DNA of 64,000 nucleotides, taken from the NCBI RefSeq assembly GCF_000303155.1, contig NC_018719.1:806001-870000 (forward strand), read 5' to 3'. The translations under genes were made by a program, and so were the position numbers. Below, piece after piece: positions 1,903 to 15,869 of this stretch. Under the pieces are notes generated by a model, which saw only the letters and a program-made list of their open reading frames with translations, did not search any database and was not told the origin of the DNA. Positions within the stretch are counted from its first letter, which is position 1, and each line of letters opens with the position of its first letter. Origin of the DNA: Candidatus Nitrososphaera gargensis Ga9.2. Lineage in GTDB: Archaea; Thermoproteota; Nitrososphaeria; Nitrososphaerales; Nitrososphaeraceae.

Positions 1903-3231
1903 CAGTACCTGGCAATTAGCCACCATCAATTATAACTGACCTGCTGTTTTTGATCTGTACCGAGTACACCGCGCCGTATTTCTGCTCCAGTCCCAGCCGC
2001 AGAAAAAGCAGCATATGAAAGTACGTAAATTCTGCATCGTATCTTCTCCCGTACCTTCCGCGCGTCGCCTTGCTGAGGTACTGCCACTTGATGTACACCC
2101 ACTCATTCTGTATAACAAGCGATGCCAGAACATAGAGGAAGCGCAGTGCTGGACTCCTGGATGACGTCCTGGCCCTGCTCTTTCCCATCGCCCTGTATGA
2201 CGATTCTATGCCAAATCTCCTCCGGTACTCGTCAAACATCCGCCCTACCGGGATATTGACAAGGCCTGCGGCATAGTACATGTACTGGACGCCGCGTTTC
2301 TTCCTGTACCTTTTCTTCCGGTATTTGGCAACGGCATACAGCCTGAATGTGCATTTCTCGCCGGTGGCAGAATCTGTCATTTCGCAGTCCGGTACGACGA
2401 AACTATCCCTTCTTTTCCGGGTCAGTCTGGATAACGTGCCGCCTTTCCTGCCTCTTGGAAAAGCGGCTATGATGTACGGGATACGCATGGAATTGAGGTA
2501 GCTCATTACAGCTGCTGTAAAGAACCCCTTGTCAAGGAACAGGCATTTTATCACGATGCTCGCCTTCTGTACCTCTGCAAGCAGGTACCTGACTACTCCA
2601 ACCAGTGCTTCCCCCTCCCGGATGTACCTGGTGGCCAAGGTGAACCTCCTTCCATGGAGCATCACGTAGGCGCTGGCGTACGTGAAAAAGTGGGTCGTGC
2701 CGCTCCTGGCCCTGCCGCGTCTGACATCCCCCTCATTCTCAGGCTCGCCGTGGTAGGGAACGTCTGTCATGTCGATGGCTATGTCGACAGCTCGATTGTG
2801 CAGGGTCTCCGCCACCCTTTTCTGCAGCAGCCTGTTGGCGGCCGACTGAATCCACGAAATGTCAATCTTGGACACGTGGTACTGGACATCCCTCCTGGAC
2901 GGGGTGCTGGCCAGAGTACAGCAGGCTTGTGTTATGGATGTCCCACCGGTACAGGCATAGACCACAGAATTTGCTATATCGACTACTGAATACCGCCTTT
3001 TTCTGAAATCGGCTGGCCTGAAGACTGGCAGCAGTACGTTTACTGCATTACCAAGTACTCTCTCATGTGTCAAAAAATGTTTGTCGGTAGGTTCTTGGGT
3101 AAATGTACCGCACTGGATTGGCAGGGTTCTCACAAACCATGCGTCTCTGGTGGCAGCTTTAGCTGTTGCCAGGGACGCCCTTCAACAATCGACTAAAAAG
3201 CTGCTCACAAACTCGTTATTGCCAAGTACTG
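1903..3231 (-). mobile_element. ISH3-like insertion sequence, copy 1
   Basis: A 1329-bp element bounded by imperfect inverted repeats (left CAGTACCTGGCAAT; right end reads CAGTACTTGGCAAT on the other strand) and flanked by a 5-bp direct repeat AATAT at 1898-1902 and 3232-3236. It carries one transposase gene. Two further copies of the same length and encoded protein lie at 23799-25127 and 59381-60709. The 5-bp duplication, size and transposase type agree with the archaeal ISH3 family. It sits between a TnpB relic and a broken recombinase gene; no interrupted gene could be reconstructed here. Confidence 0.92.
1916..3133 (-). CDS. ISH3-like DDE transposase, copy 1
   Basis: A 405-residue transposase. 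Likely catalytic acidic residues are in AIDMTDVPYHG (about residue 118), LFLDKGFF (about 201) and YRRRFGIESSYR (about 305), the order D-D-E of the IS4-like/ISH3 group with the YREK-like helix around the Glu. The N-terminal 110 residues resemble the helical DNA-binding region of this family. The frame is undamaged and the protein is identical to the copies at 23812-25029 and 59394-60611, so it is probably active. Antisense reading frames inside it recur in all three copies only because the DNA is identical. Confidence 0.92.
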   Translation of the reverse strand: MRTLPIQCGTFTQEPTDKHFLTHERVLGNAVNVLLPVFRPADFRKRRYSVVDIANSVVYACTGGTSITQACCTLASTPSRRDVQYHVSKIDISWIQSAANRLLQKRVAETLHNRAVDIAIDMTDVPYHGEPENEGDVRRGRARSGTTHFFTYASAYVMLHGRRFTLATRYIREGEALVGVVRYLLAEVQKASIVIKCLFLDKGFFTAAVMSYLNSMRIPYIIAAFPRGRKGGTLSRLTRKRRDSFVVPDCEMTDSATGEKCTFRLYAVAKYRKKRYRKKRGVQYMYYAAGLVNIPVGRMFDEYRRRFGIESSYRAMGKSRARTSSRSPALRFLYVLASLVIQNEWVYIKWQYLSKATRGRYGRRYDAEFTYFHMLLFLRLGLEQKYGAVYSVQIKNSRSVIIDGG

Positions 3232-4746: not shown

Positions 4747-5619
4747 CTAGTTTGTGCCCTTCTCTATAGGATTGCCTATCATGTTGCCCCATTCGGTCCA
4801 GGAACCATCGTAGTTGCTGACAGACGGGTAGCCGAGCAAGTATTTGAGAACGAACCAGGTATGCGAAGAGCGCTCTCCAATTCTGCAGTACGATATGACG
4901 TGTTTGTCCGGTGTGACGCCCTTGGCCTCGTAAAGTGCCCTAAGGTCATTTGGATCCTTAAACGTTCCGTCTTCCTTGATCGCCTGAGCCCAAGGAATGT
5001 TTACAGCAGTCGGAATGTGACCTCCTCTTTGGGCATGCTCCGTAGGATACTCTGGCGGCGCGGTAATCTCACCACTGAACTCTTTTGGAGAGCGCACATC
5101 GACCAGGACGGTCTCTCCATCCCTTTCAATCGCGCGCCGTACATCTGGGACGTATGCCCGTATTCCTTCGTCTGCCGGCGCTGCTATGTACCTTGAGTTT
5201 TGTATCGGAGGCACGTCCTTTGTATAACGCTTCTTCTCTTTTTCCCATTTGATCCTGCCTCCATCAAGTATCCTCACTTTCTTGTGACCATAGTACTGGA
5301 ACACCCAAAATGCGAATGCCGCAAACCAGCCATTAAAGTCGCCGTACAAGATCAGCTCTGTATCGCGGGTTGCGCCTATCCTTGACATGAGGCTTTCGAA
5401 CTGCTGCTTGCTGATTATGTCACGGCGTACCGCGTCATTGATGTCTCTTTTCCACCAGACCAGATAGGCGCCCGGAATATGCCCCTGTCGATAGGCATTC
5501 TCAGGGTCATAATCCACTTCAAGGATCCTGATGTTAGGATTATTGAGGTTATCAGCAAGCCAGCCGGTATCCGCCAAGACTTCTGGATGAGCATACCCGT
5601 TGCCGTTATTACTGGACAT
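4747..5619 (-). CDS. Thiosulfate/3-mercaptopyruvate sulfurtransferase, two rhodanese domains
   Basis: A 290-residue protein with an inactive-type N-terminal rhodanese domain (about residues 15-140) and a catalytic C-terminal domain. The active-site loop is SYCRIGERSSHTW near residue 245; the Cys carries the persulfide, and CRIGER resembles the loop of the actinobacterial CysA/SseA enzymes more than the CRKGVT of vertebrate rhodanese. It would move sulfane sulfur from thiosulfate or mercaptopyruvate to a thiophilic acceptor in the cytoplasm. Its start overlaps the end of the gene upstream (5609-5887) by 11 bp, suggesting co-translation. No signal peptide. Confidence 0.92.
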   Translation of the reverse strand: MSSNNGNGYAHPEVLADTGWLADNLNNPNIRILEVDYDPENAYRQGHIPGAYLVWWKRDINDAVRRDIISKQQFESLMSRIGATRDTELILYGDFNGWFAAFAFWVFQYYGHKKVRILDGGRIKWEKEKKRYTKDVPPIQNSRYIAAPADEGIRAYVPDVRRAIERDGETVLVDVRSPKEFSGEITAPPEYPTEHAQRGGHIPTAVNIPWAQAIKEDGTFKDPNDLRALYEAKGVTPDKHVISYCRIGERSSHTWFVLKYLLGYPSVSNYDGSWTEWGNMIGNPIEKGTN

Positions 5620-6027: not shown

Positions 6028-6252
6028 CTAGCATAACATGATGCAGCTTCCTCCCTCTTTAGGTTGTACTTGGATTGCTATTCTTCCACCGTGGCTGTGA
6101 ACGGAATCGTCGACATATGGGCAGTTATCGCATTCCCAATTAACTGGCTCGTAGCAATAGCTACAGATTTTCGTCACAGAGAGCTTCTGGCCACACTCTC
6201 TGCAGCTTGTTTTGTTATAGCATGTTGTTGGATTACTCATCTCGCTGCCCAT
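6028..6252 (-). CDS. Small zinc-ribbon protein
   Basis: A 74-residue Cys-rich protein with CxxC pairs (CRECGQ, CSYC, CDNC) that could form one or two zinc knuckles. A second Met at residue 5 (MSNPTT) is an equally likely start. It overlaps by 20 bp the end of another small zinc-ribbon gene on the same strand, so the two probably form an operon. Small zinc-finger proteins of this kind are frequent in thaumarchaeal genomes; their functions are mostly unknown. No DNA-binding helix can be identified by eye. Confidence 0.6.
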   Translation of the reverse strand: MGSEMSNPTTCYNKTSCRECGQKLSVTKICSYCYEPVNWECDNCPYVDDSVHSHGGRIAIQVQPKEGGSCIMLC

Positions 6253-6520
6253 TTCCTATGCTGGCGGGGGAGCTACGAGTCTTTCCCTTGCTTTCCAGTG
6301 AGAAGTCTAGTATTATTCCGGTACTGGTGTTGTAATCGAATGCGTATCTCTCATTATGAAAGACGGGCATCACTTCTATTGCATTTTTGTAGCAAGACGG
6401 GCATCTTTCGATCGTCGATTCAGCACCAAGAGATGAAGCGCACCAAAAGCATTCATTGCAGATGACAAAATTCGCACGTTCGACCGTTATCCTTGATGCT
6501 ATTGTAGGCGCGTTAAGCAT
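6233..6520 (-). CDS. Small zinc-ribbon protein
   Basis: A 95-residue protein. It has CNECFWCASSL near residue 21 and CPSC near residue 40, a plausible four-Cys zinc site, followed by a region rich in aromatic and acidic residues (FHNERYAFDYN). First gene of a two-gene unit with the zinc-ribbon gene downstream, which it overlaps by 20 bp. Its own start lies about 80 bp downstream of the ComA-like gene stop on the same strand, so read-through from that gene is possible. Function unknown. Confidence 0.6.
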   Translation of the reverse strand: MLNAPTIASRITVERANFVICNECFWCASSLGAESTIERCPSCYKNAIEVMPVFHNERYAFDYNTSTGIILDFSLESKGKTRSSPASIGNGQRDE

Positions 6521-6600
6521 AGCATATTTTGAATTGCACAGGATTTATTCATCGTCAAATGCGCCTGTAAAGCGCGAAATGTGCAGTTCCTGCACAGAGC

Positions 6601-7587
6601 CTACAGCCATATCGATTGCACAGGACTGTAAACCTTCTTTCTGGCATCGTCAAGGCTGCTTCTTTCTATTATCAGCCCTTGATTCTTGAGCTCATCTATC
6701 GCGCTTTGTACAGTCCTTCGGGGAAGCCTCGACATCTCCATGATCTGAACCTGGTCTATAGGATGTCTTGTCTTTATAATGAAATAGACGAATTTTGCCC
6801 CTGGTCCTCCTTCGGGCTCTTTGCGCAGGTAAGACACACTGAAGGATGCCTTCGTAGGGAATCCCCTCCTCTGTGATTCTATTGACGATACAGCGTCGAC
6901 ATGGATCTCTGCAAGGTTCACCCTCTGGCCAAACTCTGCAATCAGGGCGGACTGTTGATGCTCAAGCGGCGCTTCAAAGATGAAAGTGTTTGGAGGGAAT
7001 TTTGCAGTAAGCGCCCCCACAAAGTTCCACTTGATTGCTCCCTTTTCATCATATATGCCAACGTTGACACCCTCGTTGGCTTCAAGCACAACCTTGTCTG
7101 AACCTAGCTTGACTGCCTCCTCCACCTTGGCAGTCACGGTATCGATGGATAACTGGTGGCGCGGGTCTTTCTTGCCCACCTTCCATTGAAATTCAAGGTT
7201 CTTGGCTAGAATAGCATCAGTGATCTTTTTCTTTTGCTCAAAAGTCAGGTCAAGACTGTTCTCTCCAATTTCTATTATATCAAACCCGATGGTGGCTGCG
7301 GCAGCTACAAACTTGTCAAACGCGTTTTCTGCTACCATGTATTCAGAAATGGTACTGCCTGTAGAGACTTTGACGCCAAGGTCTTGGTAAAATTTTATCT
7401 TTCTCTGCAATACCGGTTCCGGCAGTATAAGAGGGAGAACACCGTAGATCTTGACCGCATCGACAAAAGGGGCTAAAGCTTCAAAGTTCTCCTTGTCAAG
7501 GCCCTGTAATTTGTCAATGACATAGGTCCTCCCTTCCTTTCTCGGCTTTTTGCCATCTACCCGGTTCTTGGCGTAATCTTCAAGCAA
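6601..7587 (-). CDS. ComA-like phosphosulfolactate synthase fused to a C-terminal winged helix
   Basis: Residues 1-250 resemble ComA, the TIM-barrel enzyme adding sulfite to phosphoenolpyruvate to give (R)-2-phospho-3-sulfolactate, first step of coenzyme M synthesis in methanogens. Family-like features are VDAVKIYGVLPLI near the N-terminus, the central FDIIEIGENS, and DKVVLEANEGVNVGIYD. ComA proteins are typically about 250 residues; here about 75 extra residues form a likely winged helix (TRHPIDQVQIMEMSRLPRRTVQSAIDELKNQGLI, quoted in parts: recognition helix RRTVQSAIDELK). The gene is divergent from a sulfonate-type ABC transporter. The enzyme could make a sulfonate or have become a sensor domain. 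Assignment to the family is good; the role is open. Confidence 0.8.
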   Translation of the reverse strand: MLEDYAKNRVDGKKPRKEGRTYVIDKLQGLDKENFEALAPFVDAVKIYGVLPLILPEPVLQRKIKFYQDLGVKVSTGSTISEYMVAENAFDKFVAAAATIGFDIIEIGENSLDLTFEQKKKITDAILAKNLEFQWKVGKKDPRHQLSIDTVTAKVEEAVKLGSDKVVLEANEGVNVGIYDEKGAIKWNFVGALTAKFPPNTFIFEAPLEHQQSALIAEFGQRVNLAEIHVDAVSSIESQRRGFPTKASFSVSYLRKEPEGGPGAKFVYFIIKTRHPIDQVQIMEMSRLPRRTVQSAIDELKNQGLIIERSSLDDARKKVYSPVQSIWL

Positions 7588-7676
7588 TTCCGTACATGCA
7601 TACGCAGTTTATGCGCCTATTTTGGACTTGCTAACTATGCGGATTCTGCACTTTGGCGTCGATTTCTACTAGAAAT

Positions 7677-7702
7677 TTGCATGTATCTTGCATTTCTTGC
7701 AT
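7677..7702 (+). promoter_or_regulatory. Three phased TTGCAT repeats in the comA-like / transporter intergenic region
   Basis: TTGCAT occurs at 7677-7682, 7688-7693 and 7697-7702, spaced 11 and 9 bp, about one helical turn, 43 bp before the start of the substrate-binding protein gene. The same 157-bp divergent gap (7588-7744) also holds the inverted pair GCATA/TATGC at about 7600. Such phased repeats are typical of regulator binding sites. Which regulator binds is unknown; the winged helix fused to the divergent ComA-like protein is a candidate by position only. Confidence 0.35.
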
Positions 7703-7744
7703 CTTCAGGAGCAGTATTAGCCCTAACAGCCGGCGAAATAACGC

Positions 7745-8833
7745 ATGAACAACAAGCTAAAGTTGAGCATCGCTGCAGCTATAATAGTAGCGGTCATTGC
7801 TACATCGGTGCCGCTACTTGCGATATCTGGCGGTAGTAAGAATATTGCAAGCAATAACAACCCAGGAACTACTCTTGAATCTACACAGCAAAAGACGATA
7901 AGGATAGGATATTTTCCAAATATCAATCACGCGCAGGCAGTTATTGGCCTTGGCAACGGCGACTTTCAGAAGGCTCTTGGAAGTAACATTAAGATAAAAA
8001 CACAAATCTTTAACGCTGGCCCTTCTGCCATCGAAGCGCTGTTTGCAAACCAGATAGACGTGAGCTACATCGGTCCCAACCCAGCAATCAATGGTTACGT
8101 CCAGTCTGAGGGAAAAGCATTAAGAATCATTTCAGGTGCAGCCAGTGGTGGCGCCGTATTTGTTGTCAGAAACGATGCTGGGATTAATTCGGTGAAAGAT
8201 TTTGCCAACAAGAAATTTGCATCTCCGCAGCTTGGCAACACGCAAGATGTTGCTTTGCGCAAGTACTTGCTCGACAATGGCTACAATACAAAAGACAAAG
8301 GGGGCAACGTGGAAGTGCTGCCTGCCAAGAACGCCGATATTGTTACATTGATGATAAAGAAAGAAATTGATGGTGCGTGGGTTCCTGAGCCTTGGGGAGC
8401 TAAACTGGTCAAAGAGGCGAATGGAAGAATATTCTTGGATGAACGAACCCTGTGGCCTAATGGAGAATTTGTGACAGCACATATTATAGCCAGAACAGAC
8501 TATCTGGAAAAGAACCCTGATGTCATAGAAAAGCTGATCAAGGCGCACATTGACGAAACAAACTGGATAAACTCCCACCCTGATGAGGCACGTAAAATCT
8601 TTAATGAGCAGCTTCAGATTTTAACAGGTAAGACGATCCCAGATGACGAATTCATGGATGCCATGTCTCGATTAAAACTCATTTATGACCCTGTAAAGAC
8701 TTCACTATTTGAATCTGCCAATGCCGCTTACGAAATAGGCTTCTTCGAAGAAAAACCGGACCTCTCAGGAATCTACGATCTGAACATTCTCAACAAGATC
8801 CTGCGAGAAAGAGGGCTACCTCAGATTACGTAG
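7745..8833 (+). CDS. ABC transporter substrate-binding protein, sulfonate/taurine/nitrate type
   Basis: A 362-residue exported binding protein of the SsuA/TauA/NMT1 group. An N-terminal hydrophobic segment (residues about 6-28) acts as signal or anchor, followed by a Ser/Asn/Thr-rich linker. The mature part starts with IRIGYFPNINHAQAVIGL, the standard first strand and helix of this family, and has FANQIDVSYIGPNPAI and DGAWVPEPWGAKL further on. It delivers its ligand to the permease and ATPase encoded downstream. The ligand may be an alkanesulfonate, taurine or another small anion; the ComA-like and rhodanese genes nearby favour an organosulfur compound, which is inference. Confidence 0.88.
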   Translation: MNNKLKLSIAAAIIVAVIATSVPLLAISGGSKNIASNNNPGTTLESTQQKTIRIGYFPNINHAQAVIGLGNGDFQKALGSNIKIKTQIFNAGPSAIEALFANQIDVSYIGPNPAINGYVQSEGKALRIISGAASGGAVFVVRNDAGINSVKDFANKKFASPQLGNTQDVALRKYLLDNGYNTKDKGGNVEVLPAKNADIVTLMIKKEIDGAWVPEPWGAKLVKEANGRIFLDERTLWPNGEFVTAHIIARTDYLEKNPDVIEKLIKAHIDETNWINSHPDEARKIFNEQLQILTGKTIPDDEFMDAMSRLKLIYDPVKTSLFESANAAYEIGFFEEKPDLSGIYDLNILNKILRERGLPQIT

Positions 8834-9123
8834 CTTCCGTTCATCTTTTTATTTAGTTTCTAACTTTCCAACCCGGCTTCGTGCAAAAAGCGGCTTATTT
8901 ACATTCAATTAGGATCGCAAGTTCGAGGTTTTGTATTCAATTTCTGACTCCTTACAAAACCCTAAAGTCCGTAAATCTTATTTTGCGCTGATGATGACAA
9001 CACCAATCAGTTTTGACAGATAATTTTGGGTTCTTTCGTTAACTATGCCAGATCGGCATCGAACGCGCAAGTATTGCGTCTTTGAACTCAATTATATTCA
9101 CTGCATGTGCATGACACTGTGCG
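8834..9123. other. Intergenic region between binding protein and ATPase genes
   Basis: A 290-bp gap inside the transporter locus. It begins with a T-rich run (about 8846-8866) that could end the binding-protein transcript; the ATPase gene therefore probably has its own promoter. I looked for a tRNA, riboswitch-like fold or small gene and saw none that I could support. Confidence 0.45.
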
Positions 9124-9948
9124 ATGGCTCAAATCGAACAGATGTATGGCAAAAACGTAATTCTGGAACTGAAAGAGGTCTCCAAGACCTTTCTGCAGTC
9201 AGAGAAAAATGATAGCGGCCCTACACGACGCCATGTCGTGCTGGATAGGCTAAATTTGCGCATAAGAGAAGGCGAATTTGTCACAATAGTGGGCACTTCT
9301 GGATGCGGCAAGAGCACCCTTTTGAACATAATAGCAGGCCTGGACGCGCCTGATTCTGGCCTAATTTCCGTCAAAAGCAATAATAACAAAAACATAGGAA
9401 AAGCAGAGAGGGTTGTCATATTTCAGGAAGGCGCCCTTTTTCCCTGGCTGACGGTCACGGACAACGTCGAGTTTGGACTAAAGATCGCCAGAATCCCAAA
9501 AGAGCTCAGAAAAGAGATCGCAAGTAATTTCATAGATATGGTTCATCTGACAAGATTTGCAGATTCATACGTATACCAGCTTTCCGGCGGCATGAAGCAG
9601 AGGGTCGCCATTGCACGGGCATTGGCGCTTGACGCACAGATTCTGCTGATGGATGAGCCTTTTGCAGCGCTTGACGTGCAGACGCGGGAGATTTTACACG
9701 AGCAGCTGCTTCAGATACACAAATCGACTGGCAAAACGATCCTGTTTGTCACGCACAACATCAACGAAGCCGTCCAACTAGGAGATCGTATCATACTCCT
9801 TTCGCCGCATACCAGAAGCATAAAGAGGGAAATTGTGATAGACTATCCAAAACCCCGCGACATTGAAAGTCCAGAGATAAGCGCAATCCGTAGAGAACTT
9901 TTGAATGAGCTACAGGAGGATTTCAGATTTGCAAAAACTCATTCTTGA
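9124..9948 (+). CDS. ABC transporter ATPase, SsuB/TauB type
   Basis: A 274-residue ATP-binding subunit. Walker A is GTSGCGKSTLL (about residue 58), the Q-loop is in VVIFQEGALFPW, the signature is LSGGMKQRVAIARAL, Walker B is ILLMDEPFAALD, and the switch His is in LFVTHNINEA. Sequence character and partner genes place it in the nitrate/sulfonate/taurine importer group. Its last 20 bases overlap the likely TTG start of the permease, so the two are translated together. It couples ATP hydrolysis to import through the permease at the inner face of the membrane. Confidence 0.93.
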   Translation: MAQIEQMYGKNVILELKEVSKTFLQSEKNDSGPTRRHVVLDRLNLRIREGEFVTIVGTSGCGKSTLLNIIAGLDAPDSGLISVKSNNNKNIGKAERVVIFQEGALFPWLTVTDNVEFGLKIARIPKELRKEIASNFIDMVHLTRFADSYVYQLSGGMKQRVAIARALALDAQILLMDEPFAALDVQTREILHEQLLQIHKSTGKTILFVTHNINEAVQLGDRIILLSPHTRSIKREIVIDYPKPRDIESPEISAIRRELLNELQEDFRFAKTHS

Positions 9949-10744
9949 AGCGAGGAAACAGAAACATCGGATAGATACGACTTATATTGCCAACACTTTC
10001 CTTTTCCTGGCCGCGTTTGTAGGAATCTGGCAGCTTGTCTCAAACATCGGAATCTTCCCATCTGTACTCATGCCTACCCCTGCAAAGGTAGTAGGGACGA
10101 TCGCTCGCCTGGTAACCGACTCTTCTCTAGTAGTCGGTATCGGGGTGACTATGTGGAGGCTTATTGCAGGCTTTGCGATGGCTGTTGGAATAGGTGGCAT
10201 AGTTGGACTAGCAATGGTAAAGTTTCTGGGCTTTGGAAAAACCATGAGCTCCTTTGCAGTTGGACTACTCACATTTCCAAGTATCGCGTGGGTGCCGTTT
10301 TCAATACTCCTGATAGGATTCAACGACTTCGGGATACTCTTTGTAGTAATCATGGCGTCAGTTTTCTCTGTAATGACATCAACCTACAGCTCCATTCGCA
10401 ACGTGCCTCCTATTTACATACGGGCTGCCAAAAACATGGGAGCAAAGGGATTCACGTTGTTCAGGTACGTCATGATTCCTGCCGCAACTCCTTCGCTAAT
10501 TATGGGCATAAGGCAGGCTTGGTCGTTTGCATGGCATGCTTTGATAGGAGCGGAGATACTGATAACGACCCTTTACGGGCTCGGTCACGTCCTTCACGTA
10601 GGCAGGGAATTCAACGATATGAGCCAGATAATCGCGGTTATGATAGCCATCTTTGCCATAGGCTTGCTTGTTGATCGACTAGTGTTCATGAGGCTTGAAG
10701 AAAAAGTAAGGGCTAGGTGGGGGCTAAATCAGCACAACGAGTAG
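9929..10744 (+). CDS. ABC transporter permease, SsuC/TauC type
   Basis: About 270 residues with six hydrophobic segments and the EAA-type cytoplasmic loop (IRAAKNMGAKGFTLFRYVMIPAATP) of binding-protein-dependent permeases. Two starts are possible: ATG at 9905 or TTG at 9929. I choose TTG because a strong GGAGG at 9915-9919 lies 9 bp before it, inside the end of the ATPase gene, and because the protein then starts right at the family's usual N-terminus. It forms the membrane channel of the importer. A TnpB relic begins 17 bp after the stop. Confidence 0.88.
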   Translation: MQKLILEARKQKHRIDTTYIANTFLFLAAFVGIWQLVSNIGIFPSVLMPTPAKVVGTIARLVTDSSLVVGIGVTMWRLIAGFAMAVGIGGIVGLAMVKFLGFGKTMSSFAVGLLTFPSIAWVPFSILLIGFNDFGILFVVIMASVFSVMTSTYSSIRNVPPIYIRAAKNMGAKGFTLFRYVMIPAATPSLIMGIRQAWSFAWHALIGAEILITTLYGLGHVLHVGREFNDMSQIIAVMIAIFAIGLLVDRLVFMRLEEKVRARWGLNQHNE

Positions 10745-10760
10745 AATGTTGTATATAATA

Positions 10761-11657
10761 TTACACCCGGTCTGGCTGCATCTTATTATGCAACAAAACC
10801 GAAAGATAATTACTCCAACCACTATCAAGAATATACCTTGCAAGATGGTAGTTTTTCACCATTGTTGAGAGCATGTAATCGTTCCAAGAATATTACGTCA
10901 TATCGTTTTGAATACTCTGTGGATAGCTTGTACAGAAAGTTATTGTGCTTATTCATAATATGCTCATGTAGTATCTGCAATCTAATCTTCGCCTTCTTCC
11001 AGTTGTTAGAGCCTTTCAGTCTTCGAGATAGCACTCGTCCAGCTCGCCTCAATGGCCTTAAGTCATTGTTCAGAAATAATGGATTATCGATTGAGTTATT
11101 GTCAGAGTCATGACAGAACTTAGTAATGCCAACATCAATACCGACTGTGATTCTTGAAGGTTTACAAATTGAAATATTGGTTTTGCTGATTGGCAAGTGA
11201 CAATTGCATACCACTTACTATTATGTCTCTTGACTGTCACCTGTTTGATATTGAATGGTTGCCTATGCAATCTTATTTTGATATGTCCTATCTTTCACAA
11301 CCACAGTCTGTTATTTTCTATCTTGAATCACGACTGGTTGTATGTAAACGAATTGTATCCTTCATCAGTCAGATAATGCAATCTCCCAACCCTATGCCCA
11401 TTCTGTTTCAAGGCTTTTAGAACCTTGTTTGCCGAGTATGTCTTGTGTACAACCATTTGTAACATCTTACTATGGTAATTACGTAGAAATCGTTCCTCTC
11501 CCTTCAGCTCTGTCAATGCAAACTGCATGTCTTCTAATGAGAGATTCTTGTCAAGAAAGTAATTGTAAACCCACCTGCAACCATCAAGCGCTTCTACAAG
11601 CTGTTTCTCCTGAAATACGGTAGGATAAAGGCGAAACTTGTAGTTACGTAACAGCAA
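10761..11657 (-). pseudogene. tnpB: TnpB (IS200/IS605 OrfB) relic, 3' truncated
   Basis: Starts with the family N-terminus (NYKFRLYPT, DGCRWVYNYFLDKN) at 11657 and breaks into three frames. The RuvC-I motif GIDVGIT is readable at about 11130 and the RuvC-II region as VIFLERL at about 10880. A third frame continues DSGWSNYLSVLL, aligning to LDASWSTFKNML of intact copies, until a stop at 10761. The zinc ribbon and RuvC-III motif are absent. At least two frameshifts plus the truncation make it inactive. The break point lies just after the permease gene. Confidence 0.8.
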
Positions 11658-14690: not shown

Positions 14691-15869
14691 TCAGTGAACT
14701 ACTATCGGACTTGTCCGATAGCCTCTTCTTGTTCCTGCTTCAGCGACCGCTGTTGTACGATCTCTACAGGCGTGTAACTTCCCGGCGTTCCACCGGTAGT
14801 AGCGGAGCAGTAGTAATAGCAACAACAACGACAACATCATCAGCGATTCCCGCCCTCGCTTAAGGATGTTGATTGCAGCGTTGTAGTCCCTGTCAAGTAC
14901 TGCTCTGCATTTTGGACATGAATGCGTTCTTACAGCCAATGACTTTGGTACGGTATGCCCACACCTTGAGCAGTCAACCGAGGAATATGCAGGCTCTACT
15001 TCAACAACGCGGTTGGCCTTGTACTGCAGCATATTTTTAAAAGTAGACCAGCTTGCGTCCAAGATTTTGCGTGCAAGCCGGTGGTTCTTGGTCATGTTCA
15101 TTACCCGCAATTTCTCCAAGAATATGAGATCATAGCGGCTGCTGTAGTACATTGTTGATGTCTTGTGCAGGAAATCGTGGCGCTTATTATGGATGCGTTC
15201 GTACAATCTGGCAAGCATGTGTCTTGCTTTCTCCCGGTTGCTGCTGCCTGTCTGCCTTCTAGATACCCTCCTGTGAGCTTTTCTCAATGGCCTGAGCATC
15301 TTTGTGAGAAGCTGCGGATTGTCTTCAACGTGGTTGTCGGAGTCATGGCAGAACTTGGTAATTCCAACATCTATACCCACAGGCTTTCTATACTTGATTA
15401 AGGTTGAGTACATCCTGCGCAGTAGCTGGCATGCCGCAACTGCGTACCATTTTGAATTCTTCCTGCATATTGTAACCTGCTTGACGTTTACCGGCTTTCT
15501 ATGGAGTACAATTCTTATGCTGCCTATCTTGGAGAGCGACAGCCTGTTGTTGTTCTCAAGTCTAAAGCCGGACTGGCTGTAGGTAAATGAGTTGAAATCA
15601 TCATGTTTCCGGTATGACCGCCTGCCTTTGGCAGCCTTTCTAGCTGCTGCAACCTGCTTTGCTACCATCTGAAGCATCTTGGAATGGTAGTATTTGCGAA
15701 GCCATGGATGCTGCTCTTTTAATTCGGTCAAGGCATAGTTCATATCATATTCTGACATTGGCGGGATTGAAAGAAAGTAGTTGTATATCCACCTGCAGCC
15801 GTCAAGGGTTTGATCTAACACGAGCTCTTGCTCTTTCGTTGGATATAGGCGGAACTTGTAGTTGAGCAT
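14691..15869 (-). CDS. tnpB: TnpB RNA-guided nuclease family protein, copy A (intact)
   Basis: A 392-residue TnpB with all expected parts: N-terminal MLNYKFRLYPTKEQE, RuvC-I Asp in GIDVGIT, RuvC-II Glu in LIFLEKL, zinc ribbon CSRCG...CPKC, and RuvC-III Asp in LDRDYNAA. TnpB proteins are RNA-guided DNA nucleases, ancestors of Cas12, that use an omega RNA overlapping the 3' end of tnpB and the element right end. The C-terminal tail after the zinc ribbon is low complexity (long Leu run) and the frame runs through the right-end hairpin; its stop lies just outside. A 326-bp core is identical to copy B at 37592-37917. Confidence 0.88.
   Translation of the reverse strand: MLNYKFRLYPTKEQELVLDQTLDGCRWIYNYFLSIPPMSEYDMNYALTELKEQHPWLRKYYHSKMLQMVAKQVAAARKAAKGRRSYRKHDDFNSFTYSQSGFRLENNNRLSLSKIGSIRIVLHRKPVNVKQVTICRKNSKWYAVAACQLLRRMYSTLIKYRKPVGIDVGITKFCHDSDNHVEDNPQLLTKMLRPLRKAHRRVSRRQTGSSNREKARHMLARLYERIHNKRHDFLHKTSTMYYSSRYDLIFLEKLRVMNMTKNHRLARKILDASWSTFKNMLQYKANRVVEVEPAYSSVDCSRCGHTVPKSLAVRTHSCPKCRAVLDRDYNAAINILKRGRESLMMLSLLLLLLLLRYYRWNAGKLHACRDRTTAVAEAGTRRGYRTSPIVVH
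14702..14721 (-). repeat. Right-end palindrome, probable 3' part of the omega RNA
   Basis: A perfect stem with arms CTATCGGAC and GTCCGATAG and a 2-nt loop, located at the 3' end of tnpB copy A. The same hairpin occurs at 38352-38371 in copy B. In IS200/IS605 elements this region is recognised by the transposase and forms the scaffold of the guide RNA, with the guide taken from DNA just outside the right end. Confidence 0.65.

Follow-up and report, generated by a model that had tools for sequence, protein, structure and literature searches.

It is proposed that the gene at positions 6601-7587 of the minus strand in the window, by which we mean the whole 64,000-nucleotide stretch of DNA analysed here, encodes a one-component autoregulator of sulfur acquisition, an assignment that we regard as highly probable and in which a ComA-type barrel would be the sensor and a C-terminal winged helix would act on a dyad in the promoter. 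The predicted protein has 328 residues, starts at a TTG codon and is copy 1 of the 2 tailed ComA proteins in the genome (one contig of 2,833,868 bases), which holds no other ComA. Residues 13-243 (6859-7551, minus strand) form a ComA-type TIM barrel that matches Pfam ComA (PF02679) with an E value of 5.8e-66 and 222.8 bits, against a gathering cut-off of 25.2; its model matches Methanocaldococcus jannaschii ComA (1qwg), with about 30% identity over residues 19-243. The winged-helix domain occupies residues 258-322 (6622-6816, minus strand), as placed by the structure model, profiles and fold matches, and residues 274-316 match the MarR_2 (E 8.2e-5) and TrmB (E 0.0024) profiles. The nearest solved structures, 1qwg and Bacillus subtilis 1u83, both stop short of the tail; among database relatives, the nearest one found comes from a Nitrososphaera MAG, at 95%. 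The original prediction, made from the letters and their open reading frames, had described a ComA-like barrel followed by about 75 extra C-terminal residues resembling a winged helix and foreign to standard ComA. Pfam, AlphaFold and the fold matches agree with that architecture, the extension measures some 70-85 residues, and the methanogen enzyme 1qwg ends before it; since methanogen ComA lacks the tail, the concern that all archaeal ComA proteins might share it does not apply.

The structure prediction proposed as a check on the tail returned the expected fold. In the AlphaFold model of the full-length protein (with 28 relatives) the tail consists of helices 262-274, 279-286 and 290-302 followed by strands 306-310 and 318-322, which is the helix-helix-helix-strand-strand order of the winged-helix superfamily with its recognition helix and wing, and the tail modelled alone gives an identical order of elements at a mean pLDDT of 91.3. 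Residues 290-302 (6682-6720, minus strand), assigned from the secondary structure of the model, form the predicted recognition helix; R291, T292 and Q294 in this helix, together with D314 and R316, are among the 13 positions that are invariant across genera. The top PDB fold matches of the tail model are MarR/SlyA-family regulators, a profile built from 28 tails matches SlyA (4mnu) at 6e-6, and MarR_2 is matched by 28/28 tails. The model confidence, the MarR/SlyA folds, the SlyA profile match and the uniform MarR_2 matches lead us to conclude that the tail, as modelled, is a real winged helix, and its retention across genera means that it is no chance occurrence. The fusion falls outside the MarR family proper, narrowly missing the MarR_2 gathering threshold (26.7 bits versus 27), and the flanking MarR dimerisation helices are absent from the model, where the barrel is found instead.

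In a class sample of 400 genomes, 72 carry ComA above the family cut-off; the loci taken comprise 67 of tailed length (at least 318 aa) and 14 shorter untailed relatives. Part of the genomes in these collections are fragmentary MAGs, and relatedness keeps genomes from counting as independent observations. Many Thermoplasmata MAGs proved to hold tailed copies in a collection-wide scan, and one further lineage (L112) came from a wider sampling of Thermoproteota, giving a family of tailed ComA that spans Nitrososphaeria, Thermoplasmata and one other Thermoproteota lineage. In a tree built from the barrel only, all tailed proteins form one clade (support 0.955), with M. jannaschii ComA, YitD and the untailed forms outside it; this topology fits a single fusion event and an old, monophyletic archaeal family, as far as can be judged from sequence. 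The tailed ComA of the distant lineage (L112:1279-2253) has canonical pocket motifs; the gene on one side is peroxiredoxin-like, and that on the other encodes a membrane protein resembling YeeE/YedE by eye (no Pfam match).

The pocket comparison used the residues common to M. jannaschii ComA and B. subtilis YitD, in M. jannaschii numbering. In the group from ammonia oxidisers (60 sequences) about ten of these common positions, G45-W46-G47, G75, S105, G107, E133, R170, S172 and N227, have together been replaced or lost: E133 has become K in 56, R170 N in 55 and N227 E in 53 sequences, and S172 is deleted in 57. Most ammonia-oxidiser copies retain D20, K43, E79, E103, K137, E168, E205, Q212, N224 and R240, and the tailed copies of Thermoplasmata and of basal, non-ammonia-oxidising Nitrososphaeria keep nearly all residues common to ComA and YitD. 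Most of the replaced and kept positions lie in the model at or just after the barrel strands, and TIM barrels bind their ligands on the face at the strand ends. The pocket of the window copy is thus rewritten and probably non-catalytic, a reading that derives from residue conservation and not from ComA catalytic residues taken from a cited paper. The original prediction had left the choice between an enzyme whose product controls expression and a dead enzyme used as a sensor of PEP, sulfite or a sulfonate; the replaced ComA/YitD residues favour the sensor over the enzyme for the window copy. In the g4 paralogs L078 (2752-3744) and L079 (10166-11155), which have transporter genes alongside, the barrel is strongly degenerate and the winged helix intact, so that these copies show a predicted DNA-binding part more strongly conserved than the barrel.

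The fusion gene is divergent from a putative sulfur-compound transporter. On the plus strand, 7745-8833 encodes an SsuA-like substrate-binding protein (TIGR01728, 219.4 bits, cut-off 163.5), and domain profiles identify 9124-9948 as an ABC transporter ATPase of the Ssu/Tau/Nrt type and 9905-10744 as an SsuC-like permease. The genome's second fusion copy lies in one operon with the same three SsuABC-type transporter genes. An SsuA-like gene occurs within five genes of 40/67 tailed loci versus 0/14 untailed loci, and ABC genes are directly adjacent in 39/67 versus 0/14; such neighbours are missing at 24/67 tailed copies. In four genomes, including that of the window (G000, G131, G135, G137), both SsuA-like genes adjoin a fusion gene. 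The SsuA-like family also covers transporters of other anions, so sulfonate is not proven as the transported compound. Downstream of the fusion on the same strand is a two-domain rhodanese-type sulfurtransferase (4747-5619, minus strand), a gene found near the fusion in 5/67 sampled loci. Beyond the ammonia oxidisers the neighbours include ATP sulfurylase (L169, L202, L203), APS kinase (L202), PAPS reductase (L203, L204) and a PF03601 membrane protein (L087).

Alignment of the upstream regions revealed a dyad directly 5' of the start codon in both paralog groups, with the 21-bp consensus ATATGC-N9-GCATAT. The window carries an imperfect copy, ATAGGCGCATAAACTGCGTAT on the minus strand, at 7600-7620 (-33 to -13 from the start codon), two mismatches from the consensus and inside 7588-7744, the stretch for which the original prediction had suggested a DNA-binding test. 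This predicted operator is the top PWM match in the 64 kb, scoring 17.7 against a maximum of 13.5 in 20 shuffles, the PWM being trained without the window site but with its close ortholog L041. All nine exact copies of ATATGC-N9-GCATAT in 1.01 Mb of loci lie at fusion-gene promoters or between transporter genes. An exact search of 18 Nitrososphaera genomes (about 32 Mb) with the unrefined N7-N9 dyad gave 13 matches versus 1 for a reversed-pattern control. The refined 21-mer, allowing at most one mismatch, was found there in 15 places: 14 precede a fusion gene, the transporter operon of G120 has 1, and 0 lie elsewhere. Because the refined pattern was derived from these very sites, its sensitivity holds by construction, and what it shows is specificity only. 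At the dyad-bearing loci the fusion is the recurrent helix-turn-helix (HTH) gene; the fusion copy of G120 has no clear dyad site. Within the window's own genome a one-mismatch search gave 9 sites versus 4 in the control, the sole exact site being at the paralog promoter (G000 2051963-2051983), and no regulon is claimed for this genome.

The confinement of the dyad to fusion loci in about 32 Mb rules out a general promoter element. In the window it overlaps the expected archaeal TATA box and start site, a position that suggests repression. Given this overlap and the weak folding of the dyad (-4 to -6 kcal/mol), an RNA hairpin is not preferred over a DNA site. TTGCAT/ATGCAA repeats at 7675-7703, 5' of the SsuA-like gene, are partly kept in orthologs and are possible secondary half-sites. 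The 15-bp perfect palindrome ATTTCTACTAGAAAT (7662-7676), considered as an operator, was dropped, being lost even in a 95% identical ortholog. The candidate AGGTATA-N6-TATACCT at Nitrosocosmicus paralog A is non-specific, with no excess over control. No shared operator was found upstream of the tailed genes of Thermoplasmata. Near some fusion genes, the intergenic region of a divergent pair encoding a Cys-rich DUF326 protein and an unknown protein of 213-251 aa (L077:3722-5024, L089:8-1331, L091:4682-5965) contains the same dyad, and this pair is possibly a further target.

A link to sulfur assimilation comes from three genomes of a related family, f7, with canonical-pocket copies of the fusion; there the gap between the fusion and SsuA genes holds a different dyad, ATAACGnCGTTAT. 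This sequence occurs at 13 sites genome-wide in the three genomes versus 2 for the control; three belong to the fusion gene, and 9/10 of the others lie directly upstream of sulfur genes, namely nitrite/sulfite reductase (5, of which 2 just after a TusA gene), PAPS reductase (2) and DsrE (2). The pattern ties the predicted fusion-promoter dyad to sulfite-producing and sulfite-consuming genes. The tenth site (G170:C13:3084, locus L270) is between genes for a DUF92 membrane protein and a 167-aa unannotated protein, both of which may be unrecognised sulfur genes.

We propose that the C-terminal winged helix would bind the short dyad that overlaps the core promoter of the fusion gene itself and would, in other lineages, also occupy promoters of sulfur-assimilation genes, with the ComA-derived barrel acting as a putative effector-binding domain that reports sulfur status. 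The window copy would most likely repress its own gene from 7600-7620, as the promoter overlap suggests, and control the divergent SsuABC-type transporter (7745-10744). The ligand would be a sulfite-, PEP- or sulfonate-type anion. Sulfite and PEP are the natural substrates of ComA (PMC3087415), and for canonical-pocket copies they would be apt signals for sulfate assimilation; the remodelled pocket of the ammonia oxidisers and their shift to SsuABC-type transporters suggest a different sulfur compound as the signal. A broader reading, which we put forward tentatively and hold to be somewhat short of an even chance, is that the tailed proteins are an undescribed family of archaeal sulfur-assimilation regulators in which the barrel would read sulfite and PEP, and hence sulfur and carbon status, and the winged helix would switch sulfate reduction and sulfonate uptake, the ammonia-oxidiser barrel being a non-catalytic sensor of a different, probably organic, sulfur compound.

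The strongest rival to a purely sensory barrel is a trigger enzyme, in which addition of sulfite to PEP, or a related reaction, would still take place in the barrel and DNA binding would respond to turnover or to the product, in the manner of bifunctional enzyme-regulators. Such an enzyme is possible for the canonical-pocket copies: those of Thermoplasmata and the non-ammonia-oxidising Nitrososphaeria retain the ComA/YitD residues, and their neighbours and targets make or consume sulfite; even in most ammonia-oxidiser copies the ten residues from D20 to R240 listed above are kept. Against it stand the joint replacement or loss of the other pocket residues in the ammonia oxidisers, the curated arch_ComA equivalog model TIGR03849, whose cut-off of 280 bits no sampled tailed protein reaches (best 254), and a search for the ComB phosphatase, which was not found in 61/61 family genomes although control genomes gave matches. 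We therefore consider a trigger enzyme unlikely for the family, while giving it appreciable weight. A further rival is a true ComA of coenzyme M biosynthesis whose tail is incidental: similarity to ComA is significant, but the window copy scores 164.3 bits against the 280 required, ComB is missing, pocket residues are replaced and the context is one of sulfur uptake, so that coenzyme M synthesis by the fusion was rejected and can be given hardly any probability.

Two further alternatives concern the winged helix and the dyads. Were the protein a metabolic enzyme acting on sulfonate or sulfite supplied by the transporter, with the winged helix serving only as a protein-interaction or oligomerisation module, the placement of fusion genes within transporter operons would be natural, and winged helices are able to mediate protein contacts. 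The dyads are near-exclusive to the fusion promoter and constrained in position, though, the f7 sulfur regulon has the fusion-promoter dyad in common, and the recognition helix and wing are MarR-like, with R291, T292, D314 and R316 invariant; this makes a mere interaction module improbable. A slightly better, still poor, chance attaches to an unlinked sulfur regulator that would use the dyads and count the fusion among its targets, for promoter sharing alone does not identify the binding protein. Confinement of the Nitrososphaera dyad to fusion-gene loci fits a locally encoded factor instead, and the dyad sequence changes between clades together with the fusion. The preferred reading thus remains the autoregulator with a ComA-derived sensor.

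Compared with known systems, the fusion shares with ComA (PF02679, TIGR03849, 1qwg) a TIM barrel about 30% identical in sequence and several polar residues at the strand ends; unlike ComA it carries a winged helix, and in the window copy it falls below the equivalog cut-off, has a replaced pocket and comes from a genome with no ComB. B. subtilis YitD (1u83) is likewise a ComA homologue outside methanogens, but without the winged-helix tail; plant HSA32 is another such homologue, and we know of no link of YitD or HSA32 to transcription. With the MarR/SlyA regulators the fusion has in common the winged-helix fold, the wing motif and a divergent promoter with a dyad, here a predicted operator; a MarR protein is a small homodimer whose winged helix is flanked by dimerisation helices, whereas that of the fusion is appended to a TIM barrel. 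The closest parallels in design are RbkR (riboflavin kinase plus HTH) and the ThiN-domain repressors, in which an HTH is joined to a metabolic enzyme domain, as in the fusion, and which control genes of the enzyme domain's own metabolism. Comparative genomics alone indicates the same for the fusion, through a common operator at its own promoter and at pathway genes. It differs from them in enzyme family, in serving sulfur rather than vitamin metabolism, in its C-terminal HTH and in a pocket rewritten in one clade. RbkR is listed as bifunctional, both enzyme and gene regulator, and its M. jannaschii homologue lacks the HTH (PMC8305020); ThiN repressors and enzymes are the subject of Hwang et al. 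2017, as cited there. Enzyme-derived regulators are an established kind in archaea, to which the fusion family appears to add a different enzyme fold and pathway. No described ComA-HTH fusion or Nitrososphaera phosphosulfolactate protein was found in the literature searched, subscription journals being outside its scope.

The assignment matters for annotation, as similarity to ComA can earn tailed proteins the name 'phosphosulfolactate synthase' and suggest that ammonia oxidisers and Thermoplasmata metabolise coenzyme M, while the evidence points to gene regulation. Among the abundant archaea of soils, the fusion would instead be a candidate for the control of sulfur assimilation, with named predicted operators. 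The tailed family would illustrate how an enzyme barrel can be turned into a sensor, the canonical pocket being kept by some members and rewritten in others.

Several minor observations concern the surroundings of these genes. Transposase-like and TnpB-like ORFs flank the sulfur locus in the window (1916-3133, 10825-11657, 14691-15869), some of them apparently broken as judged by eye. Just past the fusion stop codon, at 6577-6597, lies the inverted repeat TGTGCAG-TTC-CTGCACA, which ranks fifth when the window is scanned for operators; it could be a site for the following zinc-ribbon-like gene (6233-6520) or a hairpin at the transcript end. Among the non-ammonia-oxidising Nitrososphaeria, untailed ComA-like genes (L036, L040, L044, L047, L052, L061, L080) repeatedly adjoin a gene of the MmgE/PrpD family, and DUF488 and NnrS-like genes are sometimes nearby; the recurrent MmgE/PrpD pairing suggests a second, uncharacterised ComA-like system.
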